From Burkholderiales bacterium (GTDB lineage: Bacteria; Pseudomonadota; Gammaproteobacteria; Burkholderiales; SG8-41): 64,000 nt of DNA. Where the stretch lies: positions 1-64,000 of the forward strand of contig JAURHM010000006.1 in the NCBI GenBank assembly GCA_030833315.1, given 5' to 3'. A program made the translations under genes and the position numbers. A model generated the notes under the pieces. That model made no database searches. It was given only the letters and a program-made list of their open reading frames with translations, and was not told the DNA's origin. Numbering within the stretch: position 1 is the first letter of the stretch; every line of letters begins with the position of its first letter. Positions 3,823 to 48,967 of the stretch are shown piece by piece.

Positions 3823-3858
3823 GTGGCGATCAACATAAAAAAATTCCGGAGGAGCATC

Positions 3859-4833: not shown

Positions 4834-4861
4834 TTTTTCTGCACAACCGGAGGAGAACTGC

Positions 4862-14394: not shown

Positions 14395-15375
14395 ATGTTG
14401 CGCCGTCTCGCACGACTTATTCCAATTCTGCCGCTGATTTTCCCGTTTTTGGCAGGAATTAACCCGGCATCCGCGCAGACTTATCCCAACAAACCAGTTC
14501 GAATAATTTCAGCCTTTGCAGCGGGCGGAACGAATGACGTAATTGCCCGAACCATAGCCCCCAAGCTATCCGAGCACTTTGGACAACAATTCATCGTTGA
14601 GAACAGACCCGGCGGCGGCGGCGTTATAGGCACTGAATTTGCAGCCAAATCGCCCGCCGATGGTTATACGCTGACCATCGCCACAACAACCACGCATGTA
14701 ATTGCTGCAGCAATGCGCAAACTTCCCTACGATCCCGTAAAGGATTTTTCACCCATCAACTTGATAGGTGCCACCCCTTATATGATTGTTGTTCATCCAT
14801 CCATGCCCGTTAAAAACGTAAAGGACTTGATCGCAGTTGCGAAATCACGTCCGAATCAGGTCGAATTCGGCTCTGGCGGCGTAGGAACACCCGGACATCT
14901 CGCTGGCGCAATGCTCAATACGATGACCGGAATCAAAATGCTGCACGTCCCCTACAAGGCCGGCAATCTCGCGCTCAATGAATTGATTGGAGGACATGTT
15001 TCCCTTACCTTTTCCACAACAATCACTTCCACACAATTTATTCAATCCGGCCGGTTGCGCGGCATTGCAGTGACCAGCATTAACCGCCTGCCTGCCTTCC
15101 CCAATCTGCCCACCGTAGCGGAGTCCGGTGTACCGGGCTATGAATTCAGCCTTTGGCTTGGACTTTCAGCACCGGCAAAAACGCCTGAGCCCGTTATACA
15201 GATGTTAGCTGACGCCGTTGCCAAGGCCCTGCAAAACGAATCGGTACGCAGCACCTTGATCGCACAATCAGTTGAACCGGTATCGATACCAAGGCAAACC
15301 ATTGCTAAACGCATTGAATCAGAACTAATTGCATACGAAAAAATTGTCAAGCAGAGTGGAGCAATGACAAATTGA
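14395..15375 (+). CDS. Bug/TctC-family periplasmic solute-binding protein (copy 4)
   Basis: The product has 326 residues. A signal peptide (LIPILPLIFPFLAG...ASA-QT) is followed by FAAGGTNDVIAR, VENRPGGGGVIG, PADGYT and HVPYKAGNLA. The Asp usually found in the first loop (TD) is present as ND. The coding sequence has the AT-rich codon habit of the island. The stop overlaps a TTG start of the next gene (TTGA), so binding protein and hydrolase are translationally coupled and probably serve the same substrate. Confidence 0.93.
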   Translation: MLRRLARLIPILPLIFPFLAGINPASAQTYPNKPVRIISAFAAGGTNDVIARTIAPKLSEHFGQQFIVENRPGGGGVIGTEFAAKSPADGYTLTIATTTTHVIAAAMRKLPYDPVKDFSPINLIGATPYMIVVHPSMPVKNVKDLIAVAKSRPNQVEFGSGGVGTPGHLAGAMLNTMTGIKMLHVPYKAGNLALNELIGGHVSLTFSTTITSTQFIQSGRLRGIAVTSINRLPAFPNLPTVAESGVPGYEFSLWLGLSAPAKTPEPVIQMLADAVAKALQNESVRSTLIAQSVEPVSIPRQTIAKRIESELIAYEKIVKQSGAMTN

Positions 15376-20032: not shown

Positions 20033-20989
20033 ATGAAACTCGCAACCATCGCCTCAGCGATCCTGGCGACATTGCTGCTGTATGCCGGCAGCGCAGCTGC
20101 ACAGGCCTGCCCCGAGAAAAACATCAACTACTGGCAGGCCTTTCCCGCCGGCGGCGAATCCGATATTTCGGCGCGGCACCAGCAGCTGGTACTGAAAAAA
20201 CGCTGCCCCGGTATCGAAACCATCGTGCAGTACAAACCCGGTGCAGGAGGTGGCCTGATGTGGGCGCAGATCAACAACATGCCCGCCGACGGCTTCAACG
20301 TGATCGGCGTCAACCTGCCGCATATCGTGCTGCAACCCTTCGAGGGCCAGGTGCAGTACAAGACAGACGATGTGATGCCGGTCTACTGGTTCCATTACAC
20401 GCCGGATGCGCTGGTGGTGCCCGCCGACAGCCCGATCAAATCCTTCCAGGACCTGGTCAAGGCCGCGAAGGCACAACCCGGCAAGCTAACCCTCGCCGGC
20501 TCAGGCACCAACTCCGCCAACCATGCCGCACATGAAAAACTTAATCTGGTCGCCGGCGTGCAGACCACCTATGTGCCGTTCAAGGGCACCGGCGACATGA
20601 CCACCGCCGTGCTCGGCGCGCATGTCACCGGGGCGATGTCGTATTCGGCCTTTGCCATCAACAACAAGGGCAAGGTTCGCGCGCTGGCGGTCGCGATGGA
20701 CAAGCGTCACCCGCTGCTGCCCGACGTGCCGACCTTCAAGGAACTGGGCTTTGACTGGATCGACGGCGCCTACCGCGGCATCGGCATGCCTAAATCGACC
20801 ACCCCGGATGCACGCAAGCGCATGTCGGACCTGTGGGCTGCGCTCAACAATGATCCGGAGATGAAGGAACTCGCCGCCAAAAGCGGATTCGAACTGGTCA
20901 ATGTCGGCGTCGACAAGATGGAGCCCTTCATGAAAGACCGCATCCGCGCCTATACCGAAGTGGCCAAACGCATGGGGCTGACCAAATAA
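20033..20989 (+). CDS. Bug/TctC-family periplasmic solute-binding protein (copy 5, divergent)
   Basis: The product has 318 residues, with ACCGGAGGA before the ATG and a signal peptide (ILATLLLYAGSAAA-QA). It is the most unusual Bug protein here: the first loop reads FPAGGESDISAR, the second YKPGAGGGLMW in place of VDNRxGxGG, and residues Cys26 and Cys54 could form a disulfide. The later blocks (GSGTNSANHAAHEKL, YVPFKGTGDM) are still clear. It probably binds a ligand different from those of the other copies. It stands alone between a divergent ATP-grasp gene and a strong bidirectional terminator. Confidence 0.88.
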   Translation: MKLATIASAILATLLLYAGSAAAQACPEKNINYWQAFPAGGESDISARHQQLVLKKRCPGIETIVQYKPGAGGGLMWAQINNMPADGFNVIGVNLPHIVLQPFEGQVQYKTDDVMPVYWFHYTPDALVVPADSPIKSFQDLVKAAKAQPGKLTLAGSGTNSANHAAHEKLNLVAGVQTTYVPFKGTGDMTTAVLGAHVTGAMSYSAFAINNKGKVRALAVAMDKRHPLLPDVPTFKELGFDWIDGAYRGIGMPKSTTPDARKRMSDLWAALNNDPEMKELAAKSGFELVNVGVDKMEPFMKDRIRAYTEVAKRMGLTK

Positions 20990-21053: not shown

Positions 21054-23288
21054 TCAGGCAAACTTCACGCCGGCCTCGCTCATTGCCTGCTGCACCCGTC
21101 CCGGCAGCAACGGCTGCTGGCGCAAGCGCACACCGGTGAGCTGGTGGAAGGCATTGGCGATTGCCGACGGTACCAGCGGTGTCGCCATCTGGCCGGCGCC
21201 CGTCGGATGGTTGGGCGTCTGCACCAGCTTGATGTGGATGTTCGGGATGTCGCGCATCCGCGGCACGTGGTAATCGAAGAAATTCGACTGCTGCACGAGA
21301 CCGCCGCTGACATCGATATGCTCGGTCAGCGCCAGACCGATACCGTAGACAATCGAACTCTCGGTCTGGGCAACAATGTTGTCGGGCTGAATAGCGACCC
21401 CGGCATCAATCACGCACCAGAAATCATGCACGCGGATGCGGCCGTCCTTGTTCAGTGAGACTTCGGCAATACCCGCGAGCTGGGTGCCGCTGTAATCGAG
21501 ATAGGCCACGCCAAGGCCGCGCCCCTCACGCTTGCGGCCCCATGCGGCCATGCGGGCAACCTCACGCAGCACGTCACGTCCACGCTGTGCACGCGGCGTG
21601 CCCGCCAGCTGGCGAATGCGGAATTCAACCGGATCCACACCCAGCTTCGCCGCGACTTCGTCGATGAATACCTCGTTGGCAAAACTGTTCTGGCCGACAC
21701 CAATGGCGCGCAGCGGCGCGGTGCGGATACCGGTGGGCTGCTGCAGACCTTCAGCCAGGCGATGAGGAATGTCATAAGTCGGCAGTTCGGTGCCGCGCAT
21801 CGCGATATTGTCACGGCCCTGCGAAGCCTTGAAGCGAACCGGATCCATATAGGCCAGCGCCTCGTCGCTGACCACGCGATGGTGCCAGGCGACGATCTTG
21901 CCCTTGTCATCCACCGCTGCGCGGATGCGGTTCACGTATTGCGGACGGAAGCGGCCGTTCTTGACATCGTCCTCGCGCGTCCACAGCACTTTCACCGGCT
22001 TGCCGACGGCTTTGGACAGCAGCGCCGAATCGACCATGAACTCGAGGTCACGGTTGCCGCGACGGCCGAATCCACCGCCAAGCAGCATGCCGTTGAACTT
22101 GATCTTGTCCGCAGACAGGCCAAGCGCCGCAGCCACGGCATCCACGGCAATGGTCTGGCTTTGCGTGCCGCACCAGATCTCGCAGCCGTCCTTGCTCACC
22201 GAGGCCACCGAGTTCAGCGGCTCCATCTGCGCATGATAGGCATAATCGGCGCGATACTCGCCTTCAATGACGTTCTGCGCCTTGCCCAGTTCGGGAACAG
22301 CCTGCCCGACGGTTTCCCAGGCCACGCCTTTTTTGCTGTCATCGCGGGCAATTTTCGTGAACGCTTCAAATCCGCTGCCACTGGAATGTTTCCAGCCGCG
22401 CGCCTCGGAGGACCAGGTCACTTTCAAAGCCTGCTTGGCCTTGAACGCCGCCCATGGCGATTCGGCAATCACGCCGACACCGTATTGCAGCGGCACGATC
22501 TGCAACACGCCGGCTACGGCACGCGCCTCGCGGTCGTCGATCTGCACCGGCTGCGCGCGATCCACCGGTTCACGCAGGATGGCGCCGTAGACCATGCCCG
22601 GCACCTGCACGTCGATGCTGTATTGCGCCGATCCGTTGGTCTTGCCGGCAACATCGACCCGCGGCACATCTTTGCCGATCAGACGGAAATGCGCCTTGTC
22701 GAGCGCATCCAGCTGAACTTCAGGCGCCTGCGCCGGCACCTTGGCAAATGCTGCGATCTCGCCATACGACAGCCGGCGCCCCGACTTCGTATGCTCGGCA
22801 TAACCGGGCCCGCTGACGACTTCCGTCAGCGGCACGCCCCAGCGCTGGGCTGCGTTATCGAGCAACACGTAGCGCACCTGGGCGCCGAACTGGCGCAGAT
22901 TGGTGAAGTAACCGGTGACGGTAGCGCTGCCCGCGGTGTACTGCAGGTAACGGAAGGCCGGATTGCCGTAGATCTGATTGTTCGGCGGCGCCGCGACAAT
23001 GCGCACCTTTGACCAGTCGGCATCCATTTCCTCGGCGACGATCAGCGGCAGCGAAGTCAGCGACCCCTGCCCCATTTCAGCCGCCGGCGACTGGATAACC
23101 ACCGTGCCATCGGTGAATACCGTCACCCAGTTGTTGATTTTGCTGCTGCCGGTCGCCGCCTCCGCGGCGCCGACCACCAGTTCCTGCAGTCCCGGCGACG
23201 CCACAGCGACACCGAAGGTCAGACCGGCAGCACCGGTCATGAAACGGCGGCGCGACGGATTCTTGATCATGGGGTTTTGTGCACTCAT
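21054..23288 (-). CDS. Molybdenum hydroxylase large subunit, IorB/xanthine dehydrogenase family, Tat-exported
   Basis: Read from the ATG at 23288 (GGGGAGG upstream), giving 744 residues. The N-terminus is a Tat signal (PSRRRFMTGAAGLTFG), as in isoquinoline 1-oxidoreductase beta subunits. Moco-binding landmarks include AEMGQGSLTSLP, the GGGFGRRGNRD loop, and AIGVGQNSFANE. At about residue 700 the position of the active-site Glu in the family GxGE motif reads GAGQ, that is, Gln. The enzyme class hydroxylates N-heterocycles or oxidises aldehydes using water as oxygen source. The [2Fe-2S] subunit is encoded directly upstream; no FAD subunit is present, so electrons probably pass to a cytochrome. 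Confidence 0.88.
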   Translation of the reverse strand: MSAQNPMIKNPSRRRFMTGAAGLTFGVAVASPGLQELVVGAAEAATGSSKINNWVTVFTDGTVVIQSPAAEMGQGSLTSLPLIVAEEMDADWSKVRIVAAPPNNQIYGNPAFRYLQYTAGSATVTGYFTNLRQFGAQVRYVLLDNAAQRWGVPLTEVVSGPGYAEHTKSGRRLSYGEIAAFAKVPAQAPEVQLDALDKAHFRLIGKDVPRVDVAGKTNGSAQYSIDVQVPGMVYGAILREPVDRAQPVQIDDREARAVAGVLQIVPLQYGVGVIAESPWAAFKAKQALKVTWSSEARGWKHSSGSGFEAFTKIARDDSKKGVAWETVGQAVPELGKAQNVIEGEYRADYAYHAQMEPLNSVASVSKDGCEIWCGTQSQTIAVDAVAAALGLSADKIKFNGMLLGGGFGRRGNRDLEFMVDSALLSKAVGKPVKVLWTREDDVKNGRFRPQYVNRIRAAVDDKGKIVAWHHRVVSDEALAYMDPVRFKASQGRDNIAMRGTELPTYDIPHRLAEGLQQPTGIRTAPLRAIGVGQNSFANEVFIDEVAAKLGVDPVEFRIRQLAGTPRAQRGRDVLREVARMAAWGRKREGRGLGVAYLDYSGTQLAGIAEVSLNKDGRIRVHDFWCVIDAGVAIQPDNIVAQTESSIVYGIGLALTEHIDVSGGLVQQSNFFDYHVPRMRDIPNIHIKLVQTPNHPTGAGQMATPLVPSAIANAFHQLTGVRLRQQPLLPGRVQQAMSEAGVKFA

Positions 23289-23289
23289 C

Positions 23290-23757
23290 TCACACCTCCC
23301 CTTTCGCGGCGCGCTCAATCGCACGGGCGATACGCACATAGGTGCCGCAGCGGCAGATGTTGGGACTCATGTATTCAACAATATCTTCGCGCGAGGGCCG
23401 TGAATTCTGCTTGAGCAGGCCGGCAGCACGCATGATCTGCCCGGACTGGCAGTAACCGCACTGCGGTACCTGTTCGGCGCGCCAGGCTTTCTGCAAGGGG
23501 TGATTGCCGTCCGGCGACAGACCTTCGATGGTCGTCACCTGCTTGCCATCGACATCCTTGATCGCATGCAGGCAGGATTGCGTTGGCTCGCCGTTCAGGT
23601 GCACGGTGCAAGCGCCGCACTGGCCGACGCCGCAACCGAATTTGGTACCGGTGAGTTTCAGTTGCTCACGCAGCACCCACAACAGCGGCGTATCGGGTGC
23701 AGCGGTGATTGTTTTTCGCTGGCCGTTGATGGTCAGCGTCACGGTAACGTTGCTCAT
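23290..23757 (-). CDS. Molybdenum hydroxylase [2Fe-2S] subunit (IorA-like)
   Basis: The 155-residue protein carries two iron-sulfur clusters. The plant-ferredoxin-type cluster uses Cys42, Cys47, Cys50 and Cys62 ([15 protein letters not shown]). The helical second cluster uses QCGYCQSGQ and the NICRCGTY motif. It transfers electrons from the molybdenum site of the large subunit, whose ATG begins one base after this stop, so the two are translationally coupled. It has no signal peptide and would be co-exported with the Tat-bearing large subunit. Confidence 0.92.
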
Positions 23758-23925: not shown

Positions 23926-25128
23926 TTAAATATTTTGACCGGCGCGGAACAGCCCTCGTGGCGCGCGATGCAGCGGCTCGCAACCGTCGCGTGTGATGCG
24001 CATCAGCTCACCAACCTGCACGCCGGATCGTTTCGATTCATCCGCTTCGGTGGTTACCGGATTGGGTTGGACCACCACGGTCATGTTTTCTTCCAGCGTC
24101 ATCTGCGGCAAGGCGCGCCCGGCCATGCGGCTTTTCGTACCGATGATCGGCTGGAAATAGCCGCCACCGAAACCGTGCACCAGGTCATCACACACCGTGT
24201 AACCCTTTTGCTCGATCAGTGCGGTGGCGTCCATGATTTCCTGCATGGTCGTGCCATGGCGCAATACCTTGGTCACCGCATCGAAGGTGGCTTCGGCCGT
24301 CGCATGCAGATCCGCATAACGCGGCGTCGGATCGGCATCAACGGTAAAGGTGCGCAGGATCTGCCCGGGATAATCCCACCAGAATGCCGACAGCTCGCAG
24401 AAAATGACATCGCCCGCCCGCACCTTGCGCGGCGAAGGATGCTGCGGCGGCACATAGATATGCGGCTGCGCCATCGACGTCACGCCGATGTAATGGATCA
24501 TCGTCGTGCCGCCGTGTTTGATATAGGCGCTCTCCACCAGCGCGCCGAGTTCACGTTCATCCATGCCCACGCGCGTGCCGGCCACCAGCGCGCGCAGTCC
24601 GGCGTCAGACAGCGCCGCACCGATGCGCAGCCAATCGATTTCCTCTTCCGATTTGCGCATGCGCAACTGGGTGTAGTCAGCATCCAGCAGCTTCACTTCG
24701 AAAGCCGCTTCAAGCTGGCGGCATTTGGACAGCACCAGCGGACCGATCAGACCGATACGTTTCGCGCCACGCCGTTTCAGCTCCTCGATGGTCAGCGCGA
24801 TGCCCTGATGCTGCCCCCAGCGCACATCGACATCGCGGGCGATCTTGCGGCCCAGCGGAAAATGGTTGAACCACTCCATGTGCATGACCATGCGCTCACC
24901 GGGCTTGAACACGACATAGGCCTCGACCGTTCCGGGCCAGCCGGTCAGCCATTGCACGGCATTGCCGGCGCGGTGATCGGTGACCACTAGCAGATGGTCA
25001 CAGCAATGTTTTTCCATCGCTGCCGCCAATGCGGTCTGGCGTCTTACATATTCAGCATCCGAAAAATGCGGGTATTGCTGCTGCATCACTGCCTGCAGAC
25101 GCGGCTCAACCTTCAACACTGCACTCAT
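23926..25128 (-). CDS. M24 (pita-bread fold) family protein with lost metal ligands
   Basis: The 400-residue protein has an N-terminal creatinase-type domain (residues 1-170) and a C-terminal M24 domain. In active aminopeptidases the five metal ligands are Asp, Asp, His, Glu, Glu. Here the first Asp region reads FCELSAFWWDYPGQILRTF (Glu and Gln at the two Asp positions), His is kept in LVHGFGGGYF, the first Glu region reads VVVQPNPV (Gln), and the last reads GVQVGELMR (Gly). At most one or two ligands survive, so it is unlikely to be a metallopeptidase. Metal-free relatives such as creatinase hydrolyse small C-N substrates, which fits its place beside cyclodeaminase and hydrolase genes. Confidence 0.85.
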   Translation of the reverse strand: MSAVLKVEPRLQAVMQQQYPHFSDAEYVRRQTALAAAMEKHCCDHLLVVTDHRAGNAVQWLTGWPGTVEAYVVFKPGERMVMHMEWFNHFPLGRKIARDVDVRWGQHQGIALTIEELKRRGAKRIGLIGPLVLSKCRQLEAAFEVKLLDADYTQLRMRKSEEEIDWLRIGAALSDAGLRALVAGTRVGMDERELGALVESAYIKHGGTTMIHYIGVTSMAQPHIYVPPQHPSPRKVRAGDVIFCELSAFWWDYPGQILRTFTVDADPTPRYADLHATAEATFDAVTKVLRHGTTMQEIMDATALIEQKGYTVCDDLVHGFGGGYFQPIIGTKSRMAGRALPQMTLEENMTVVVQPNPVTTEADESKRSGVQVGELMRITRDGCEPLHRAPRGLFRAGQNI

Positions 25129-25159: not shown

Positions 25160-26161
25160 TCAGATGGATTTGGAAAACACCGGACTGACCGGCTCCTTGA
25201 GACTGGGCAGATCGGGCGCGGACGGCAGATCCGTGCGCGAACCGAGCAATTGATGGTAACGCACGGCCAACGCCAGATCCTGCAAGGCCGTGCCTACGGA
25301 TTTGAAGGCGACAAGCCCTGATGCAGGCGGCTTGACCACAGCCGCGACAATATGCGCCAGTGTTGCCTGTTTCGTTTCTGACACGGCACCGGCCTGAACC
25401 GCCCTCTGCAGGTCACCGGCCTCATCCGCAGCACGGGGTGAATCCACCACCACCAGCGCAGCATCGGCAAAACACCGCGCATCGACTTCCACCGATTCGG
25501 GTCGCGTGCTGCCGACCGCGCACAGCAGGCGGCAGCCTTCCAGCCATTCGCCACGCACCAGCGGCTCACTGCCGCGATGGCTGGTCGCGGCAACCACAAC
25601 CGAGTGTCCGCGACAGGCGGCTTCTGCGCTGAAAACCGGTGTAACCGGAATCCCCAGACGGGCCGAGTTGTCCCGCGCAAAACGTTCACGGTTTTCAGAA
25701 GAGCGGCTGAAGACGCTGACCGAGGCCAGCGGATAGACGCTGGCCAGACTGTCGAGTTGCATGCGCGCCTGATGGCCGGAACCGACCAGCCCCACCGACA
25801 CCCGTCCGGCAATGGCAACCTGCCGCGCCAGCACGCCGCTGGCCGCACCGGTGCGCAGATCGGTAATCAGGCGGCCGTCGAGCACTGCCAGCAGTTCACC
25901 GTCGGAGAGACGGTACAAGGACACGACGTAACGCACGCCGTGGCCTTCGCGCAGATGGAACACCTTGGTCGCCGCATAACCCGCGGCGTAATCGGTGGCG
26001 AACATCATGCGCATCCAGCCGCCCTCGAAGGCGGTATTCAGCCGCGGCGACACGAAGGTCTTGCCTGCAGCCTCATTCCGCGACATCGCCTCGAGCAAGT
26101 CGATCGCATCCCGCATGCCCAGCACGCCTTCCAGCGCACCGCTTCCCAGCATCACCGCCAT
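25160..26161 (-). CDS. Ornithine cyclodeaminase / mu-crystallin family dehydrogenase
   Basis: The 333-residue protein has the mu-crystallin layout: an N-terminal segment with EGGWMRMMFATDY and KVFHLREG, the TGAASGVLARQVA region, and a Rossmann NAD(P) site VGLVGSGHQARMQLDSL near residue 123. Members are NAD(P)-dependent ketimine reductases, cyclodeaminases or amino acid dehydrogenases. The EGGW and KVFH stretches replace more usual motifs, so the substrate is open. The downstream M24 start lies 32 bp away and the upstream hydrolase stop 11 bp away, so all are probably one transcript. Confidence 0.88.
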   Translation of the reverse strand: MAVMLGSGALEGVLGMRDAIDLLEAMSRNEAAGKTFVSPRLNTAFEGGWMRMMFATDYAAGYAATKVFHLREGHGVRYVVSLYRLSDGELLAVLDGRLITDLRTGAASGVLARQVAIAGRVSVGLVGSGHQARMQLDSLASVYPLASVSVFSRSSENRERFARDNSARLGIPVTPVFSAEAACRGHSVVVAATSHRGSEPLVRGEWLEGCRLLCAVGSTRPESVEVDARCFADAALVVVDSPRAADEAGDLQRAVQAGAVSETKQATLAHIVAAVVKPPASGLVAFKSVGTALQDLALAVRYHQLLGSRTDLPSAPDLPSLKEPVSPVFSKSI

Positions 26162-27265: not shown

Positions 27266-28231
27266 CTATTCGGCTTTTGCGCCACTGGCCTTGATCAGCG
27301 GCACCAGTTTTTCGATTTCGGCGCGCAGGAACCTGGCGAACTCTTCCGGCGTACTGCCGACAAGTACCGAACCTTCACGCGAAAGGTAATCCTTGAACTC
27401 CGTTGTATTCGCCGCTTTCAGCGTCGCTGCGTTGAGCCGGCGCACGACATCCGGCGGCGTACCGGCGGGCACAAAAATCCCCTGCCAGCCGCCGAACTCA
27501 TAACCCGGAAGGGTTTCCGCGATGGCCGGCAGATCCGGCAGATTGGGCAGACGTTTGGGACTGGATACGCCGAGCATGCGCAGCTTGCCTGCCGCCGCCT
27601 GACCGATGGCGGTGGAAACCGGCGAGTACGAGAGATGCGCCTCGCCCGAAACCACAGCAACCACCAGCTGGCCACCGCTCTTGTACGGCACATGCAGCAT
27701 GCGGGTACCACTCATGCTGTTGAACAATGCACCGGCGAGGTGACTGGTCGATCCGTTGCCGGCAGAACCCATCAGCAACTCACCCGGCCGCGCCTTGGCC
27801 AGCGCCACCAGTTCCTTGACGGTTTTGACGGGCAGAGAAGGATGTACGGAGGCGACGTTATAAAACTGCGAAACCAGCGACACCGGCGCAAAGTCCCGGA
27901 GCGAGTCGTAACCGACCTTGGCATACATCGCCGGACTCACCACCATCGACACCGACCCGCCGACATAAATGACATAACCGTCAGCCGGCGATTTTGCTGC
28001 CGCTTCCGTACCGATCACTGCACCCGCACCGCCGCGGTTGTCGACCACGATCTGCTGGCCCACCGCCTCCCCGAGGCGCTGGGCAAACGCACGCGCCATC
28101 ATGTCGGTGCCGCTGCCCGCCGACCAGGGCACGATAAAGCGTATGGGTTTGGCCGGGTAAGACTGCGCCATCGCCAGCGGCGCGGTGCAAAGCGCCAGCA
28201 GGACCACCATCCTCAAATGCCTGGTCAACAT
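27266..28231 (-). CDS. Bug/TctC-family periplasmic solute-binding protein (copy 6)
   Basis: The start is set at the ATG at 28231, preceded by AGGAGGAGA; a longer reading would overlap the neighbouring aldolase gene. The 321-residue product has a signal peptide (MVVLLALCTAPLAMA-QS) and the loops WSAGSGTDMMAR, VDNRGGAGAVIG, PADGYV and HVPYKSGGQL. It lies between the DapA-like and alpha/beta hydrolase genes, so its ligand is probably the substrate of that group. Confidence 0.93.
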   Translation of the reverse strand: MLTRHLRMVVLLALCTAPLAMAQSYPAKPIRFIVPWSAGSGTDMMARAFAQRLGEAVGQQIVVDNRGGAGAVIGTEAAAKSPADGYVIYVGGSVSMVVSPAMYAKVGYDSLRDFAPVSLVSQFYNVASVHPSLPVKTVKELVALAKARPGELLMGSAGNGSTSHLAGALFNSMSGTRMLHVPYKSGGQLVVAVVSGEAHLSYSPVSTAIGQAAAGKLRMLGVSSPKRLPNLPDLPAIAETLPGYEFGGWQGIFVPAGTPPDVVRRLNAATLKAANTTEFKDYLSREGSVLVGSTPEEFARFLRAEIEKLVPLIKASGAKAE

Positions 28232-28277
28232 GTCTCCTCCTATTGGTATTGCTTTTTGTTGTGCCTCTTTTACCGGA

Positions 28278-29276
28278 TCAGGCCGCCCGCGCCGGCGCTG
28301 CAGCGGCATAACGACCCAGCAGCCCGCAACGTTCAAGGTCGGCGCGCATTTCAGCACGCTGCGCATCCGTCACCTGCGGCAGCGGCGCCCGTACGTGGCC
28401 GCCGGCCATACGGATCAGGTCAGCCCAGGCCTTGAGCAGGTGGATGGGGATGAGCTTGTGTTTGAGCCAGGGTTCGCGCATCCATTTCTCGTGCACGTCG
28501 CGCAGCGGCTGGATGCTGTCGCGCAGCGCCTGCGCTTCAGCGAATTTTCCGGCCAGCGCCAGCTCGCCGTAGTCGCGCATCGGCGTCCAGCCCGCAACCT
28601 GCATCAGGAACGGCGCCGCCGAAGACATATGCACCTTCATGTCGTTTTCGCGGACCAGTTTCAGGAACTCCGTTTCCGACGGATGCGAAAACACGATCTT
28701 GTCGCCGCACAGTTTCTGCGCCGTGGCGTAATGATCCAGCGGCCGCGAGCACTTGATACCGCAGATGTTTTCTATTTTTGCAATGCGCGCGGTCAGTTGC
28801 GGTGAAAACGCCACGCCGGAAAACGGCGTATCGAACATCCAGATGCCGATATCAACGCGCGCCGCAACGGTGGCGAACCATTCATACAGCGTGTCTTCGC
28901 TGGCCCATGGATAGTAGGGATTAATGACAATCGCGAAATCGGCGCCGACATCCTGCGCATGGCGGGTCAGGTCGGCGGTCTCGTTCGGCGAATGATGGCC
29001 GGTATGGGCAATGACCTTGCACTTGCCGTGCGCTTCCTCAACGACGATTTCGACGGCGCGTTTGCGCTCTTCCTTGGTCAGCGCCCAGAACTCGCCCATG
29101 GTGCCGGTGCAGAAAATGCCGTCGACACGCAGTGCATCGGTGTAATGGCGCATATTGCGCCGGAGCCCTGCTTCGTCCAGCCGGTCATCCGGCGTAAACG
29201 GCGTCGGTATCGCCGCCCAGACGCCGCGAAACTCGGCGCGTGATGCTTCCTTGGCTTCGGATTTTCGGTAACGCAT
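28278..29276 (-). CDS. DapA/N-acetylneuraminate lyase-family aldolase, non-canonical
   Basis: The 332-residue TIM-barrel protein has the Schiff-base lysine at Lys175 (ICGIKCSRPLDH) and the GTMGEFWALTKEER loop that replaces the family GTTGE...T motif. The catalytic Tyr of the YNxP motif in true DapA is Phe here (WMFDTPFSG), so lysine-pathway dihydrodipicolinate synthase activity is unlikely. It more likely cleaves or forms a C-C bond next to a 2-oxoacid carboxylate in catabolism. A terminator at 29316-29348 separates it from the upstream Bug gene, so it may have its own promoter. Confidence 0.87.
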   Translation of the reverse strand: MRYRKSEAKEASRAEFRGVWAAIPTPFTPDDRLDEAGLRRNMRHYTDALRVDGIFCTGTMGEFWALTKEERKRAVEIVVEEAHGKCKVIAHTGHHSPNETADLTRHAQDVGADFAIVINPYYPWASEDTLYEWFATVAARVDIGIWMFDTPFSGVAFSPQLTARIAKIENICGIKCSRPLDHYATAQKLCGDKIVFSHPSETEFLKLVRENDMKVHMSSAAPFLMQVAGWTPMRDYGELALAGKFAEAQALRDSIQPLRDVHEKWMREPWLKHKLIPIHLLKAWADLIRMAGGHVRAPLPQVTDAQRAEMRADLERCGLLGRYAAAAPARAA

Positions 29277-29376: not shown

Positions 29377-30339
29377 TTACTGCGGCTTGATACCCGCCGC
29401 CTGCAGCACTTTCGCGCCGACTTCAATTTCACTGCGCACGAACTTGGCGAACTGCGCCGGATCCATCTCCATCGGCTCGTTGCCGAGTCCGGCCAGTTTG
29501 GATTTCACGCCGGCATCGTTACCTGCAGCCTTGATCGACTGCGAGATCTTGTTGATCACCGGCTGCGGAACACCGGTGGGTGCCCAGACGCCAAACCACA
29601 ACGAGAAATCAAAACCGGGAACGCCGGATTCGGCGATGGTCGGGATGGTCGGAAGGATACTGCTGCGCTTGATCGTGCTCACCGCAATGGCACGCACCCT
29701 GTTCCCCTGCACATGCGCCAGCGTGGTCGAGATCGGCGCGAAATAGAAGTCAACGCGGTTGCCGAGAACGTCGGCCAGCGCTTCCGCCGAGCCCTTGTAC
29801 GGCACATGGTTCATGTTGATCTTGGCCATCAGCTTCAGCTTCTCGAGATTGAGATGCGTGCCGCTGCCGACACCGGCCGATGCAAAATTCAGCGCGCCGG
29901 GCTTGGCCATCGCTGCTTTCAGAACATCCTGCACTGTCTGGTACGAGGTGCTGGGATGAGTCACCATGACATTGGGCTGCTGCGCCAGCGGGCCGATATC
30001 GACAAAATCCTTCAGCGTGTCGAAGGGCAGCTTGGCATACAGCGAAGGATTGACCGTGTGGCCGGAGGAATGCATCAACAGCGTATAACCGTCGGCCGTC
30101 GATTTCGCCGCGATGGCCGCAGCAATCGAACCCCCGGCGCCCGGCCGGTTGTCGGCAATGACCTGATGCCCCCACATTTCCGTCCACTTCTGGGTATACA
30201 GGCGGCCGACGATGTCGGTGGCGCTGCCAGGAGGGAAAGCCACGATGAAACGCACCGGCTTGTTCGGATAGTCCGCGGCAAATGCCGAAGCACCGGCATA
30301 CGCCAGTGCCGCCAGCATCAGGGTGGTCATTTTTTTCAT
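29377..30339 (-). CDS. Bug/TctC-family periplasmic solute-binding protein (copy 7)
   Basis: The 320-residue protein starts at the ATG at 30339 behind GGAGGAAAA, with a signal peptide (LMLAALAYAGASAFA-AD). Loops FPPGSATDIVGR, ADNRPGAGGSIA, TADGYT and HVPYKGSAEA are visible. It closes the gene run that begins at 37959, directly before a strong terminator, and follows the 3-hydroxyisobutyrate-dehydrogenase-like gene by 29 bp. Confidence 0.93.
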   Translation of the reverse strand: MKKMTTLMLAALAYAGASAFAADYPNKPVRFIVAFPPGSATDIVGRLYTQKWTEMWGHQVIADNRPGAGGSIAAAIAAKSTADGYTLLMHSSGHTVNPSLYAKLPFDTLKDFVDIGPLAQQPNVMVTHPSTSYQTVQDVLKAAMAKPGALNFASAGVGSGTHLNLEKLKLMAKINMNHVPYKGSAEALADVLGNRVDFYFAPISTTLAHVQGNRVRAIAVSTIKRSSILPTIPTIAESGVPGFDFSLWFGVWAPTGVPQPVINKISQSIKAAGNDAGVKSKLAGLGNEPMEMDPAQFAKFVRSEIEVGAKVLQAAGIKPQ

Positions 30340-30368: not shown

Positions 30369-31292
30369 TCAGAGCCCGTCGCCGATGTCCACGTTCTCGG
30401 ATTTGAGTTCGATGCCCGAAGCCTTGGCCTGCAGCAACAGCAGCTGCGAGAAGTCCTGATCATAGCCGTTTCCGATCAGGGTTTGCACCAGATCGCGGGT
30501 GACGCTGGTGGTCGGCATCGGTACGCCAAAAGTGCGGCCGGCGGCCAGACCCAGGTCGATGTCCTTGCGCAGCAGTTCCGGCGTGAAGGTGACATGGAAA
30601 TCGAGGTTCGAAATCGCCGGCGTCTTGTAAGCGGTGAACATCGAGCCCATCACGCTCTTGTTGAGGAAGTCGAGAAAAGCATGGCGCTGCATTCCGGCCT
30701 TTTCGGCAAGCACGGTGATTTCGCAAAGATTCTGGATCACCACACCGAGCATCACGTTGTGACAGATCTTGGCGATACGCGACAGTTCGCCGTCGCCGAC
30801 ATAGGACACGCCGCGGCCAATGGCCTCCAGATAGGGGCTGACCGCCTTGAAAGCATCTTCAGGACCCGACGCCACCACCGTCAGCTTGCCGGCCTTGATG
30901 ACCTTGGCATTGCCGGATACCGGCGCCGCCAGCATCTGGATGCCCTTCTCGCCCAGCTTGGCGCGGATTTCCGCGGACTCTTCCAGAGAGATCGAGGTGC
31001 TGTCGACGATCATCTTCGGCTTGCCGCCCTTGGACATCACGCCGTTCGGTCCGAACAGCACTTCCTTGACATCCTTGCCTGTCGACACCATCGTAAACAC
31101 GATGTCGCAGCCGGCGAGATCAGTCAGGTTGTCGGCGACCTTGGCGCCCGACTTGGCCAGCGGCTCCGCTTTGGATTTGGTACGGTTCCACACGGTGATG
31201 TCGCAACCGGCTTTCGCCAGACGCTCCGCCATCGCGTAACCCATGCGACCGATGCCGATCCAGCCGAGTTTATGTTGTTTCATGTTTGCCAT
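30369..31292 (-). CDS. NAD-dependent beta-hydroxyacid dehydrogenase (3-hydroxyisobutyrate dehydrogenase family)
   Basis: The 307-residue protein has the N-terminal Rossmann loop GWIGIGRMGYAMAERLAKAG and the conserved substrate-site segment AAPVSGNAKVIKAGKLTV. The catalytic lysine is in IAKICHNVMLG. Family members oxidise 3-hydroxyisobutyrate, tartronate semialdehyde relatives and similar beta-hydroxyacids. Placed just downstream of a 2-oxoacid dehydrogenase complex, it could make or remove a short-chain semialdehyde for that pathway. GAGGAAAT 9 bases upstream supports the ATG at 31292; a second ATG three codons in is possible. Confidence 0.9.
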   Translation of the reverse strand: MANMKQHKLGWIGIGRMGYAMAERLAKAGCDITVWNRTKSKAEPLAKSGAKVADNLTDLAGCDIVFTMVSTGKDVKEVLFGPNGVMSKGGKPKMIVDSTSISLEESAEIRAKLGEKGIQMLAAPVSGNAKVIKAGKLTVVASGPEDAFKAVSPYLEAIGRGVSYVGDGELSRIAKICHNVMLGVVIQNLCEITVLAEKAGMQRHAFLDFLNKSVMGSMFTAYKTPAISNLDFHVTFTPELLRKDIDLGLAAGRTFGVPMPTTSVTRDLVQTLIGNGYDQDFSQLLLLQAKASGIELKSENVDIGDGL

Positions 31293-31355
31293 TTTCTTAT
31301 TTCCTCGAAGATTTCAGATTCAATATGAATTCAATAATTCCATGTGACCCGTACA

Positions 31356-32603
31356 TCAGGATTCCAGCGCCTGTTCCCAGTTGCGCGTCTCGATCGCATT
31401 TTTGACCTCAGCGAGAAAAGCCGCGGAATAGGAACCATCGACCGCGCGATGGTCGAAACTCTGCGCGAGCACGCCGACCGGACGGATCGCAATCGAATCG
31501 CCGCCGTCGCTCTCGACCACCACCGGCTTTTTACGGATGCCGTCAGCGGACAGAATCGCCACCTGCGGCTGATTGATGATCGGCGCGGTGATCACGGTGC
31601 CGAAAGCGCCGTTATTGGTGATGGTGTAAGTGCCCTCGGTCATCTCATCCGGGCGCAGCTTGCCGGCGCGGGCGCGCTGAGCCAGATCATTGATCTCGCG
31701 CGCGATCTGCGGCAGCGATTTCGCCGGCACATCCTTAAGCACCGGCACCACCAGCCCGTCGAAGTTCAGATCGACGGCAATGCCGATATTGATCCGGCGA
31801 TGCAGCACGAGGCCGTCGCCCTGCAGGCTGGCGTTAAGCTTGGGAAACTTGCCCAGCGCAATCGACACCGCACGCACGATGAACGGCAGATAGGTCAGCG
31901 AAAAACCTTCACGCGCTTTCCATGCTGCGCCATGCAGCTTGCGCGCCTGATCGACACGCAGGAAATCGGCTTCGGCCACTTGCAAGACATGCGGCGCGGT
32001 CTGCCAGGACTTCGCGGTGTTTTCGGCGACACGCTTGCGGATGCCGTTGAAAGCCACCGTCTGTCCGGCCTGAACCGGTGCGGGTGCAGCAACAGCTGCC
32101 GGCGCAGATGCCGGACGCGAACCACGGCGTGCGATGAACTCCTTGACGTCTTCACGGGTAATGCGGCCGTCGCGGCCGGTACCGGTGATGTCCGACGGAT
32201 TCAGGCTGTGTTCGGCAACCAGACGGCGCACCACCGGCGACAGCCGGTCGGCCGCATTGACCCGCGGCCGGCCCGAAGGTGCCTGAGAAAGCACCGCTGC
32301 GGCAGCAGCAGGAGCAACACTGGCCACAGCGGGCGCAGCAGCCGCGGGTTTCGCAGCCGCCTTGGCGTCACCGGCTTCCCGGATGATCGCCAGCGTCGCA
32401 CCAACCTTGGCAGTCACGCCTTCAGCGACCACGATCTCGGCAACTATCCCCGCCACCGGCGACGGAATCTCGGTGCTGACTTTGTCGGTCTCGACATCGA
32501 ACAGCGTTTCGTCGGCCTTCACGGCATCGCCGACTTTTTTGTACCACTTGGTGACAACGCCCTCGGCGACGGTCTCGCCGAGCTGCGGCATGATGATGTT
32601 CAT
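31356..32603 (-). CDS. Dihydrolipoamide acyltransferase (E2) of a 2-oxoacid/acetoin dehydrogenase complex
   Basis: The 415-residue protein has one lipoyl domain (residues 1-76, lipoyl-lysine Lys41 in VETDKVSTEI), an Ala/Pro-rich linker and a peripheral subunit-binding domain (VRRLVAEHSLNPSDITGTG). The catalytic acyltransferase domain ends in QSFDHRAVDGSYSA, which carries the HRxxDG active-site motif. It transfers an acyl group from E1 to CoA. It is 15 bp from the E1-beta gene. No E3 (dihydrolipoamide dehydrogenase) gene is in the window, so the complex would use a shared E3. Confidence 0.93.
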   Translation of the reverse strand: MNIIMPQLGETVAEGVVTKWYKKVGDAVKADETLFDVETDKVSTEIPSPVAGIVAEIVVAEGVTAKVGATLAIIREAGDAKAAAKPAAAAPAVASVAPAAAAAVLSQAPSGRPRVNAADRLSPVVRRLVAEHSLNPSDITGTGRDGRITREDVKEFIARRGSRPASAPAAVAAPAPVQAGQTVAFNGIRKRVAENTAKSWQTAPHVLQVAEADFLRVDQARKLHGAAWKAREGFSLTYLPFIVRAVSIALGKFPKLNASLQGDGLVLHRRINIGIAVDLNFDGLVVPVLKDVPAKSLPQIAREINDLAQRARAGKLRPDEMTEGTYTITNNGAFGTVITAPIINQPQVAILSADGIRKKPVVVESDGGDSIAIRPVGVLAQSFDHRAVDGSYSAAFLAEVKNAIETRNWEQALES

Positions 32604-32618
32604 CGTTTGCGCCCCCGC

Positions 32619-33596
32619 CTAGTCAATCTTTTCGCGGATTTCGCGCACGATGCGCTCCACCGACGGGATGGTGTTGTCTTCCAGCTGATCGGCTGAAGGC
32701 AGCGGGATATGCGGCGTGGTAATGCGGATGATCGGACCGTCGAGCTCCCAGAAACATTCATCGGCGATGATCGAGGCGATTTCCGCGCCCCAGCCGCAGA
32801 GCCGCGGATTCTCTTCCACCGTGACCAGACGACCGGTCAGCGCCACCTCGGCGAGGATGGTCGCGGTATCCAGCGGCACCAGCGAACGTACGTCGACCAC
32901 CGTACAGGAAATACCATGCTCCTTCTCGAGAATCTCCGCAGCCGCCAGTGCACGGTGCACCATCAGCGCCAGCGCGACAATCGTGCAGTCCTTGCCCCGG
33001 CGCAGCACACGTGCCTTGCCCAGTTCGTCAACATATTCGCCGTCGGGCACCTCGCCCTTCATCGGATACAGCGACTTCTGTTCGAAGATCAGCACCGGAT
33101 CATCGTCGCGCACTGCAGCGGCGATCAGGCCTTTGACGTCAGCGGGGAACGCCGGCGCCACGACCTTGATGCCGGGGATCATCATCGCCCAGTTTTCCAC
33201 CGATTGCGAGTGCTGCGCGCCGAAACGCGAGCCGGCGCCGTTAGCGGTGCGGATCACCAGCGGCATCTGCACCTGGCCGTTGGTCATGTAACGCGACTTC
33301 GCAATCTCGTTGGCCACGATGTCCCAGCACACCGCCAGAAAATCCGAGAACATGATTTCGGCAATTGGCCGCAGGCCGGTCATCGCCGCGCCCATGGCCG
33401 CACCGAGGATGGCCTGTTCCGAGATCGGCGTGTCACGCACGCGCATCGGACCGAATTTGTCGAGCAGGCCGACGGTGGCCTTGAACACGCCGCCGGCGGC
33501 GGCAATATCCTCTCCGAGGAAAACCACGCGCTCATCGCGCGCCATTTCCTGTGCGATACCCGCGGCGACCGCGTCGCGATAGGTCAGTTCCGCCAT
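32619..33596 (-). CDS. 2-oxoacid/acetoin dehydrogenase E1 beta subunit
   Basis: The 325-residue transketolase-like subunit begins LTYRDAVAAGIAQEMARDER and has VVFLGEDIAAAGG, FGPMRVRDTPISE and a C-terminal domain with VVDVRSLVPLDTATIL. It forms the alpha2-beta2 thiamine-diphosphate enzyme with the upstream subunit, whose 3' end overlaps this start by 13 bases. Branched-chain, acetoin and pyruvate versions share these motifs; the catabolic context favours acetoin-type or branched-chain-type activity without proof. Confidence 0.93.
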   Translation of the reverse strand: MAELTYRDAVAAGIAQEMARDERVVFLGEDIAAAGGVFKATVGLLDKFGPMRVRDTPISEQAILGAAMGAAMTGLRPIAEIMFSDFLAVCWDIVANEIAKSRYMTNGQVQMPLVIRTANGAGSRFGAQHSQSVENWAMMIPGIKVVAPAFPADVKGLIAAAVRDDDPVLIFEQKSLYPMKGEVPDGEYVDELGKARVLRRGKDCTIVALALMVHRALAAAEILEKEHGISCTVVDVRSLVPLDTATILAEVALTGRLVTVEENPRLCGWGAEIASIIADECFWELDGPIIRITTPHIPLPSADQLEDNTIPSVERIVREIREKID

Positions 33597-34597
33597 GATG
33601 CACCTCCATCCGCCCAGACATGTTGATGGATGCCGTCCAGTGAAGGCGGCGGCGATGCCTTGGCGATTTCAGTGGCTTCGTTGACCTGTTGATTCACTTC
33701 GTCCTCAATGTCTTTCAGCGTGGCGTCGACAATGCCGAGGCCCAGCAGGCGTTCACGGTAAATTTTGATCGGGTCGCGCTCCAGCCACTTCTCCAACTCG
33801 CCCTCGGGGCGGTATTTCGCCGGATCGGCGCGCGAGTGTCCGGAATGGCGATAGGTCATGCACTCGATCAGCGCCGGACCGCCGCCCTTGCGTGCGCGGT
33901 CGATGTATTTGGTCGCCGTGCGATAGACCGCGTCGGCGTCGTTGCCGTCGACAACAATTTTTTCCAGGTTGTATGCCGAAGCACGATCCGCCGCGGGGTG
34001 TTCCACTGCGGTCACGGTGTGGATCGGCGTGTATTCCATATAGAGATTGTTTTCGCAAACAAAGATCACCGGCAGTTTCCAGATCACCGCGAAGTTCAGC
34101 GCCTCATGGAAAGCACCGATATTGGTGGTGCCGTCGCCGAAGAAACACACGGAAACCTGTTCGGTGCCGCGATACTGCGCGCTCCAGGCCGCACCCGCCG
34201 CCACCGGCAGATGCGCACCGATGATGGCGTAGGAACCCATCGCGCCCTTGGAGACATCGGTCAGGTGCATGGAGCCGCCCTTGCCGCCGAGGAGACCGCA
34301 TTCACGGCCCATCAGCTCGCCGAGCACGCCGCTCATCGAGGCGCCGCGCGCCAGAGTGTGCGCGTGTCCGCGATAGGTACAGAACGTGTAATCATCAGGT
34401 CGCATTGCCACGCCAAAGGCCGCAGCAATCGCCTCCTGTCCGAGCGACAGGTGGCTGGTGCCCTTGATCATGTTCTGCAGGAACAGATCGAAGGCGCGCT
34501 TTTCACAGAGCCGCAGCTCCAGTTGCATGCGGAACAGCTCGAGCCGGATATCGCGGCCGATGTCGTCTTCCGCCACGGCGGTTTTCTTGCTTTTCAC
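33584..34597 (-). CDS. 2-oxoacid/acetoin dehydrogenase E1 alpha subunit
   Basis: The thiamine-diphosphate motif is FFGDGTTNIGAFHEALNFA with CENNLYMEY after it; LMGRECGLLGGKGGSMHLTD and the phosphorylation-loop-like RHSGHSRADPAKYR are also family marks. Two starts are possible. A TTG at 34624 overlaps the preceding stop (TTGA) and gives 346 residues; a GTG at 34597 is chosen because it has AGGA 7 bases upstream, giving 337 residues. The gene lies between the DddP-like M24 gene and E1 beta. Confidence 0.92.
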   Translation of the reverse strand: MKSKKTAVAEDDIGRDIRLELFRMQLELRLCEKRAFDLFLQNMIKGTSHLSLGQEAIAAAFGVAMRPDDYTFCTYRGHAHTLARGASMSGVLGELMGRECGLLGGKGGSMHLTDVSKGAMGSYAIIGAHLPVAAGAAWSAQYRGTEQVSVCFFGDGTTNIGAFHEALNFAVIWKLPVIFVCENNLYMEYTPIHTVTAVEHPAADRASAYNLEKIVVDGNDADAVYRTATKYIDRARKGGGPALIECMTYRHSGHSRADPAKYRPEGELEKWLERDPIKIYRERLLGLGIVDATLKDIEDEVNQQVNEATEIAKASPPPSLDGIHQHVWADGGASWRN

Positions 34598-34620
34598 TTT
34601 GGGTTCCTGTCCTTGAAAAC

Positions 34621-35979
34621 TCAATACTTGTTGGCGATCGGCAGTTCCTGCGCCGGGAACAGCGTGATGATCTTCGCGCCGGTCGGCGTCAGCACCACTT
34701 CTTCTTCTATACGCGCGGCGGAAACGCCATCCTTGGCCGGGCAGAAGGTTTCAACGGCGAACACCATTCCGGCCTTGAGCTCGTACGGATCCTTGAACGA
34801 ATTCAGACGCGAGATCAACGGACGCTCATGCAGGCCAAGACCCAGGCCGTGACAGAAGTTCAGGCCGAAGGCCGCCATCTCGGTTTCAAACCCGATCTCG
34901 GTGCACTTGGGGAAAGCCTTGGCCACAGCCTCGGTGGAGACGCCCGGCTTCAACATCGCAATGGCGTCATCCATCCACTTGCGCGCCCGCTTGTAGGCAT
35001 CATGCTGCGCCGGCGTGGCGCTGCCCACGGTGAAGGTGCGGTAGTAGCAGGTCTTATAGCCCATGTACGAGTGAATCAGGTCGAAATAGGCCTGGTCACC
35101 CGGACGGATCAGCCGGTCGGTGAAGTTGTGCGGATGCGGACTGCAGCGTTCTCCGGCAATCGCGTTGACGGCTTCCACGCAGTCCGAACCCATTTCATAA
35201 AAACGCTTGGCCGCCATCGCGACCACTTCGTTTTCGCGGATGCCCGGCTTCAGGGCTTCGAAAATATCCTGATACACGCCGTCGCCCATCGCCGCTGCAG
35301 TATTGAGGAGAGTGATTTCGTCGTAGCTCTTGATCTCGCGCGCATCGAGCATCACCTGCTGGCCGTCCATCACTTTAAGGCCCAGCTTCTGCAACGCAAA
35401 CAGAAAAGGCGGCTCAACGACGTCGATGCCGATCGGCATGTCGGCGACGCCCTCCTGTTTGAGGATGTCGTAAATCTCTTTCGCCGCGGCTTCGAACAGG
35501 CCGACCTTCGGCGACACCGCGCCGCGTAGTCCCGCCAACCCCGGAATGTTGTGGTTCTTCGGCAGCCACGGCGCGTACAGTTTGTGATGGCGCACAGCGG
35601 AACCGAAGTCCCAGACCCAGGGCTCGCCGTTGCCGGTCAGCAGACACCAGCGCGTGAGTTTGTCGCGTGCCCATTCGCCGATCACCGTACTCGAGATGTA
35701 ACGCATATTGATCTGATCGAACACCAGCAGCGCACCCAGCTTGGATTTTTTCAGCGCATTGCGCGTGCGTGCGAGGCGGTATTCATGCAGGCGCTGGAAA
35801 TTGACGCGTTCTTCAAAGTCGACCTGCATGCGGCCCGGGGCCTGCAGCGGACGCTCCCAGCGATGACCCGGATCGGCCGGATCAAACAGCACATCTGGTG
35901 CTGACGACACGCCCTTGTCCGGGTTGATGCTGGCGGTCTTGATGAGTTTCGGCTCGACCGGTTTTTTCTTCCGCGCCAT
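34621..35979 (-). CDS. M24-fold protein resembling DMSP lyase DddP
   Basis: The 452-residue protein combines an N-terminal domain of about 200 residues with an M24 catalytic domain. Length and the segments GALLVFDQINMRYISST, WVWDFGSAVRHHKL and CSPHPHNF resemble DddP-type proteins more than aminopeptidases. Of the five metal ligands, the first Asp (AYFDLIHSYMG), the His (FCHGLGLGLHERP), and both Glu (FAVETFCPA, ARIEEEV) are present. The second Asp is missing (YKTCYYRTFTVG). DddP is an iron-dependent lyase acting on dimethylsulfoniopropionate; activity on that substrate is not claimed. The downstream E1-alpha gene overlaps or nearly overlaps its stop. Confidence 0.82.
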   Translation of the reverse strand: MARKKKPVEPKLIKTASINPDKGVSSAPDVLFDPADPGHRWERPLQAPGRMQVDFEERVNFQRLHEYRLARTRNALKKSKLGALLVFDQINMRYISSTVIGEWARDKLTRWCLLTGNGEPWVWDFGSAVRHHKLYAPWLPKNHNIPGLAGLRGAVSPKVGLFEAAAKEIYDILKQEGVADMPIGIDVVEPPFLFALQKLGLKVMDGQQVMLDAREIKSYDEITLLNTAAAMGDGVYQDIFEALKPGIRENEVVAMAAKRFYEMGSDCVEAVNAIAGERCSPHPHNFTDRLIRPGDQAYFDLIHSYMGYKTCYYRTFTVGSATPAQHDAYKRARKWMDDAIAMLKPGVSTEAVAKAFPKCTEIGFETEMAAFGLNFCHGLGLGLHERPLISRLNSFKDPYELKAGMVFAVETFCPAKDGVSAARIEEEVVLTPTGAKIITLFPAQELPIANKY

Positions 35980-36032: not shown

Positions 36033-37010
36033 TCAGTCCGCCTTGATGCCGGCGGCCCGGATGATCGGCGTCCATTTTGCCAATTCGCTTTTGACATAGG
36101 CCTGCAGTTCTTCCGGCGTTGTCGGTGAGGCCACTGCACCACGCTGCAACAGGGAAGCCTTGACCTCCTCCGTACTCAGGATGCCGGTGATTTCCTTGTG
36201 CAGCTTGGCAACGATGGGCTTCGGCACTTTCGCCGTGGTGAACAGCCCGAACCACAGTTCGGCTTCCATGCCGGCAATGCCGGCCTCGATCGTGCTGGGA
36301 ATGTCCGGCGCGCCGGGGAAACGCTCCTTGCCCGATACCGCCAAAGCACGCACCTTGCCGGTCTTCAACTGCGCATAAGCGGTGACCGGCGACAGGAAGG
36401 AAATCTGCGTTTCGCCGGAGAGAATGGAGGTCAACGCGAAGCCCGCGCTTTTGTACGGAATGTGCTGCACATCGACCTTGGCAACCTGCTTGAACAGTTC
36501 ACCGGTGAGATGGCTGACCGTACCGTTGCCGGCCGATGCGTAACTGAGATTACGCTGCTTGGACAACGCCACCAGTTCCGGAATGTTTTTCGCCGGCACC
36601 GAAGGGTGGACGACCAGCACAGTGACGCCGGTCGCCGTGCGGGTGATCGGCGAAAAATCCTTCAGCGGGTCGTAAGGCAGGTTCTTGTACAGCGACACCG
36701 CACTGACCATCGGGCCGGCATGGCCCATGATCAGCGAATAACCGTCAGGCGTAGCCTTCGCCACCACTTCCGCCGCCAGCGTGCCGCCGGCACCGGCGCG
36801 ATTGTCGACCACCACCGCCTGGCCCCAGCGTTCAGTCAGCTTCTGGCCGATGTAACGTGACAGGTAATCCGCCGTGCTGCCCGCGCCCTGGCCCATGATG
36901 CGTATCGGTTTTGACGGGAACTTGTCTGCCGATTCCGCCGCAACCACCGGTCCGGCGATCAGAGCCGCGCCCATCACCATGCCGCTTAATGCGTATCCGA
37001 TTTTTCTCAT
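36033..37010 (-). CDS. Bug/TctC-family periplasmic solute-binding protein (copy 8)
   Basis: The ATG at 37010 (GGAGGTG upstream) gives 325 residues with a signal peptide (LSGMVMGAALIAGPVVAA). The first loop is altered: GQGAGSTADYLSR in place of the usual xxPGGxxDxxAR, while VDNRAGAGGTL, TPDGYS and HIPYKSAGFA are normal. It is the second gene of the block facing the GntR-type regulator, 49 bp after a second type of substrate-binding protein. Confidence 0.92.
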   Translation of the reverse strand: MRKIGYALSGMVMGAALIAGPVVAAESADKFPSKPIRIMGQGAGSTADYLSRYIGQKLTERWGQAVVVDNRAGAGGTLAAEVVAKATPDGYSLIMGHAGPMVSAVSLYKNLPYDPLKDFSPITRTATGVTVLVVHPSVPAKNIPELVALSKQRNLSYASAGNGTVSHLTGELFKQVAKVDVQHIPYKSAGFALTSILSGETQISFLSPVTAYAQLKTGKVRALAVSGKERFPGAPDIPSTIEAGIAGMEAELWFGLFTTAKVPKPIVAKLHKEITGILSTEEVKASLLQRGAVASPTTPEELQAYVKSELAKWTPIIRAAGIKAD

Positions 37011-37059
37011 GTGACACCTCCGTGGATTTGGTATTGGTAAGAACTTGTTATGAACGAAA

Positions 37060-48804: not shown

Positions 48805-48967
48805 TGCTGGCTCCGGATCGGGCTTCACAATGAAGCCTTCTTGAGAATGGGTTGCCGGTTTCTACTGAAGATGCCGGGAGATACCCGCTTGGGCGAATCA
48901 AGGGCTTCCGCTAAACTGCGGCTGGATTTTACAGGCATCCAGCCGGTATTTTAATCACGGAGCAAAC

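Follow-up and report, generated by a model that had tools for sequence, protein, structure and literature searches.

Members of the M24 family carry their metal ligands at five positions, which read Asp, Asp, His, Glu and Glu, and several described proteins of the same fold depart from peptidase function or from this metal set. Creatinase (1CHM, 1KP0, 7YTO) is a homologue without the metal set and with a catabolic role; checked against the 1CHM sequence, its five positions read Asn249, Ala260, His324, Glu358 and His. Of its other residues, we take His232 and Glu262 to be catalytic, with Glu262 and Glu358 binding the guanidino group. DoeA/EutD (6TWJ, 6TWK, 6YO9) has likewise lost the metal set, and reads Glu, Pro, Tyr, Met and Thr at the same positions. 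The Glu at ligand position 1 of DoeA, which should be residue 255 of the solved protein, is presumably catalytic. The DMSP lyase DddP (4B28, 4RZY) has the M24 fold without being a peptidase, and is described as a metalloenzyme in the title of PMC4108388. Finally, PA2G4/Ebp1 is an M24-fold protein that acts as a non-peptidase pseudoenzyme (PMC3888471).

The protein compared here with these systems, P0001, is encoded in a window of 64,000 nucleotides, the whole stretch of Burkholderiales DNA that was analysed:

23926..25128, minus strand: M24-fold protein P0001, 400 aa (open reading frame and translation)

The start codon lies at 25128 and the stop at 23926, giving 400 codons on the minus strand; the coordinates given in the preliminary description stand, to which the strand, left unstated there, is now added. 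A plus-strand reading over 23926-25128 was discarded as a spurious overlap. The C-terminal pita-bread domain is recognised by Pfam M24 (76.5 bits, cut-off 23), and P0001 falls below the cut-off of every NCBIfam model. The top NCBIfam match is ectoine hydrolase (46.7 of 575 bits for NF038259, 37.7 of 613 for TIGR02993), and no DddP model is among the matches listed. The AlphaFold model (pLDDT 94.7, pTM 0.92) shows the full two-domain fold of prolidases and creatinase, and resembles prolidases, creatinase, DoeA and DddP alike (TM 0.69-0.78 by query length). The prolidases and aminopeptidases P (1PV9, 2ZSG, 1A16) give the top sequence and fold matches, with a TM of 0.78 for the X-Pro aminopeptidase of T. 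maritima, while creatinase reaches 0.73-0.77 and DoeA 0.73-0.75. In a maximum-likelihood tree in which several outgroup branches are long and creatinase is represented by a fragment only, P0001 and its relatives form a clade (support 99/96) apart from PepP, methionine aminopeptidase, DoeA, creatinase and the DddP-like protein of the same gene cluster. Membership of the DoeA family was rejected on the scores given above. By its position in the tree, P0001 belongs to a so far uncharacterised and widespread M24-fold branch of bacteria and haloarchaea; a literature search on M24 proteins with pseudooxynicotine hydrolase, or on metal-less M24 pseudoenzymes, returned nothing on this branch.

Where the M24 ligands are Asp, Asp, His, Glu and Glu, P0001 reads Glu245, Gln256, His318, Gln354 and Gly373. 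The codons of these residues, and of two others discussed below, are as follows:

24394..24396, minus strand: Glu245, ligand position 1; Asp in peptidases, Glu in DoeA, Asn249 in creatinase
24361..24363, minus strand: Gln256, ligand position 2; Asp in peptidases, Ala260 in creatinase, Pro in DoeA
24175..24177, minus strand: His318, ligand position 3, the metal His (from the subfamily motif and the alignment to the methionine aminopeptidase profile)
24067..24069, minus strand: Gln354, ligand position 4; Glu in peptidases, Glu358 in creatinase
24061-24063, minus strand: invariant Asn356, in the motif QPN with Gln354
24010..24012, minus strand: Gly373, ligand position 5; Glu in peptidases
24445..24447, minus strand: Pro228, at the position of prolidase His192 and creatinase His232; Pro, Arg, Ala, Thr or Ser among orthologues

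Profile alignments of 41 family members against solved prolidases, with which single-sequence alignments concur, place Glu245, Gln256, Gln354 and Gly373 unambiguously on Asp209, Asp220, Glu313 and Glu327 of Pyrococcus furiosus prolidase. The register of His318 differs with the partner: against prolidase 1PV9 and PepP it is shifted by four residues, onto the neighbouring His280, whereas against T. maritima aminopeptidase P, methionine aminopeptidase and other M24 proteins or mixed M24 profiles it falls on the metal His284. The former alignments would suggest that the metal His has been lost as well, a reading overruled by the latter and by divergent members of the clade. His318 is assigned as the former metal His because these members read HGWGLQI-EPPR against the prolidase motif HGVGLEIHEWPR, the second His of which is gone in the P0001 clade. 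The five residues named in the preliminary description are thereby upheld. On these alignments, the dinuclear metal site is absent from P0001 whichever His register holds. That description had also named an alignment with the ligands elsewhere as its counter-evidence; when 85 clade members were compared, no conserved replacement set was found within the metal-site motifs. Glu374, directly after Gly373, varies across the clade; most paralogues and archaeal relatives have Asn, Gly or Ser there instead.

Genome contigs were scanned for relatives of P0001, and 110 stretches encoding such proteins were found; the best 80 were retained, most of them from uncultured Beta- and Alphaproteobacteria and some from Actinobacteria. 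Among these best 80 of 110, all 76 full-length orthologues (44-93% identity) carry the identical Glu/Gln/His/Gln/Gly set, and the underlying codons differ synonymously (GAG/GAA for Glu, CAG/CAA for Gln, CAC/CAT for His, all four for Gly). With 76 of 76 orthologues identical while their codons vary, the set is, on this comparison, conserved far beyond chance. The dN/dS of P0001 against its close relatives is 0.05-0.11 which, together with the fixed residues at the ligand positions, rules out a decayed gene. The set is also retained in divergent paralogues of 33-38% identity, one of which is encoded in the same genome, and in a relative from Haloarcula sp. GH36; the relative from Haladaptatus halobius differs in the five residues only by a Glu at 354. 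Across the clade of 85 sequences (76 orthologues and nine paralogues or archaeal relatives), Glu245 (76/76 and 9/9), Gln256, Arg259, His318, Asn356 and Gly373 are invariant, Gln354 and Gln371 are conserved in all members but one, and Asp314 is found in 76/76 orthologues and 8/9 of the others. Trp64, Glu69, His212, Asp315 and Arg334, on the other hand, are fixed or nearly so in the orthologues and different in other subgroups. An invariant core with subgroup-variable residues around it is, as far as conservation can tell, the pattern of a common catalytic core with changing specificity.

As for distribution, a strong match is present in most of the genomes sampled from the window's own family, while a sample of 274 genomes spread over the class yielded one in the window's own genome alone. 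Several environmental contigs from metagenome-assembled genomes that carry relatives of this betaproteobacterial gene are titled Bordetella parapertussis (L051, L053, L071, L083, L102, L110) or Chitinophaga pinensis (L101), and look like mislabelled bins. As a separate observation, an M24-like protein a few genes away from one orthologue (L064:5556-6833 and L033:7762-9039, the same contig from two sources) reads Glu, Lys, His, Glu and Ser at the ligand positions. Further M24 proteins of the window's order, at L136:1468-2562 and L139:1405-2661, also have altered residues there, so that M24 homologues without a full metal set seem to be common in this group.

Comparison with the two metal-free enzymes shows where the likeness of P0001 to each of them ends. 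The catalytic and guanidino-binding residues assumed for creatinase, His232, Glu262 and Glu358, correspond to Pro228, Leu258 and Gln354 in P0001, and creatinase-like catalysis was rejected on these grounds. DoeA and P0001 have the Glu at ligand position 1 in common, and resemble each other in the WLTG motif of the N-domain and in a P-x-x-G turn that follows the His/Tyr motif; judged by its residue at ligand position 1, DoeA is the nearest parallel to P0001, and a better analogue than creatinase. DoeA differs at the remaining four positions, however, and retains a His at the position of Pro228. Since this His, used by creatinase and kept by DoeA, is missing from P0001, the mechanism of neither enzyme can be transferred to it. 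A deacetylase partner of the eutE/doeB type was not found among the window neighbours scanned, nor at the loci of relatives, where the search covered the recurrent gene clusters only.

P0001 sits within a run of catabolic genes on the same strand:

21054-23339, minus strand: molybdenum hydroxylase large subunit (Pfam MoCoBD_1/2)
23290-23757, minus strand: molybdenum hydroxylase small [2Fe-2S] subunit (Pfam Fer2, Fer2_2)
25160..26161, minus strand: ornithine cyclodeaminase/mu-crystallin family (OCD) protein (Pfam, 133 bits), 31 bp from P0001
26172..27218, minus strand: alpha/beta hydrolase, relative of 2,6-dihydroxypseudooxynicotine (DHPON) hydrolase (PDB 2JBW, E=1.6e-37)
27266-28366, minus strand: TctC receptor (Pfam)
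28278-29276, minus strand: DHDPS-family protein, flanked by two TctC receptors (Pfam)
29377-30339, minus strand: second TctC receptor (similarity to relatives)
30369..35979, minus strand: HIBADH-like dehydrogenase, 2-oxoacid dehydrogenase E2, E1b and E1a, and DddP-like M24 protein

Close relatives conserve the block at 30369..35979 in the vicinity of their M24 gene, and an ornithine cyclodeaminase family gene recurs near the orthologues. The window as a whole contains at least nine TctC-like receptor genes (3823-4833, 4808-5839, 8427-9398, 14395-15375, 20033-20989, 27266-28366, 29377-30339, 36033-37241 and 47842-48828), two of them checked with Pfam and the remainder judged from their translations. 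The DddP-like M24 protein (34621-35979, minus strand) has a ligand set of its own, Asp, Cys, His, Glu and Glu, in which Cys311 replaces the second metal Asp; this Cys is invariant in 32 of 32 sequences, some from overlapping loci and one at 60% identity.

Around the relatives, the commonest gene directly upstream encodes an FMN-dependent hydroxyacid dehydrogenase (17 loci). Nitrilase genes and an SsuBC-like ABC transporter also recur, and the alphaproteobacterial relatives have a 3-carboxymuconate-cycloisomerase-like lyase nearby. Of the 32 distant loci (M24 identity below 60%), which are phylogenetically not all independent, 11 have a gene resembling DHPON hydrolase, a C-C bond hydrolase, within 8 kb. 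The 3.1 Mb genome of the window itself contains seven copies of this family at E<=1e-15, so that proximity by chance is roughly estimated at 4% per locus. Such homologues adjoin M24 relatives in Alpha-, Beta- and Actinobacteria and in Haloarcula. The partner is not universal: among genomes of the same genus, a close orthologue of the DHPON-hydrolase-like protein occurs only in the window's own and in one other (G008).

With one fixed set of residues standing in for the metal site, P0001 is probably a metal-free small-molecule hydrolase and not a peptidase. The reading that we favour, with a probability of roughly 0.55, is that P0001 hydrolyses a small catabolic intermediate without the help of metal, the dinuclear site being replaced by the fixed polar set Glu245, Gln256, His318, Gln354, Asn356 and Gly373; that P0001 is an enzyme, and that it is free of metal, are both likely on the residues conserved. 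From the fold relatives and the neighbouring genes, the bond attacked is probably a C-N bond of an amide, imide, lactam or amidine-like compound rather than a peptide bond. In such a mechanism, Glu245 may act as nucleophile or general base, a role that the corresponding Glu of DoeA appears to play, His318 could serve as acid/base, and Gln256, Gln354 and Asn356 would hold the substrate and the oxyanion. P0001 may work jointly with the C-C hydrolase related to pseudooxynicotine hydrolase. The more specific proposal, that this is a further metal-independent M24-fold family besides creatinase and DoeA, with a Glu/His/Gln/Asn centre at the old dinuclear site, a nitrogen-containing substrate and a C-C hydrolase as partner, is put forward tentatively and at slightly less than even odds.

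Other readings have to be weighed against the metal-free hydrolase. A rebuilt mononuclear metal site, made up for instance of Glu245, His318 and Asp314, would agree with the conservation of these three residues and with their location within or next to the ancestral metal-site motifs. The bridging Gln256 and Gly373, and Gln354 at position 4, are however unable to bind metal as the ancestral Asp and Glu did, and the motifs hold no other conserved Asp, Glu, His or Cys, the only nearby substitute being the variable Glu374; a metal-dependent enzyme of this kind is considered unlikely. Lost ligands and the precedent of PA2G4/Ebp1 would also suit a pseudoenzyme that binds a small molecule or a protein within the catabolic operon. 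This is judged equally unlikely: the polar core is invariant in bacteria and in two haloarchaeal relatives, and the gene clusters are repeatedly metabolic, not regulatory. The preliminary description had offered a pure binding protein as an alternative, one that loses ground because the core of the clade is invariant while other conserved residues vary by subgroup. Its suggestion of a metal-free hydrolase remains plausible and fits the catabolic surroundings, but not in the manner of creatinase, given the Pro, Leu and Gln at the three positions compared above.

On the model of DddP, P0001 might instead act on a small acid as a lyase or by some other non-hydrolytic route, but this would be less probable still. 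DddP shows that the fold is capable of elimination, and the cluster encodes a second, DddP-like M24 protein; it is this protein that DddP resembles, in a different part of the tree from P0001, and P0001 has no metal site like that of DddP. By far the least credible is the ordinary Xaa-Pro aminopeptidase or prolidase of automatic annotation, although the Pfam M24 match points that way and RefSeq relatives are indeed named 'Xaa-Pro peptidase family protein' or 'M24 family metallopeptidase', as had been anticipated. The four acidic ligands and the substrate-binding His192 of prolidase are all replaced, the ligand replacements being fixed in the orthologues and the His192 position variable, in keeping with the earlier view that P0001 is not a conventional peptidase, and separate PepP-like and methionine aminopeptidase genes are present in its own genome.

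The favoured reading, a metal-free hydrolase, bears on annotation as well as on enzyme evolution. M24 proteins are routinely labelled Xaa-Pro peptidases; the branch of P0001 is very unlikely to use peptidase chemistry, and many such labels are therefore probably wrong. If P0001 is a metal-free enzyme, it would represent another route by which this fold has exchanged its dinuclear metal centre, and the genes that recur beside it would offer a way into a catabolic pathway of bacteria that are largely uncultured.
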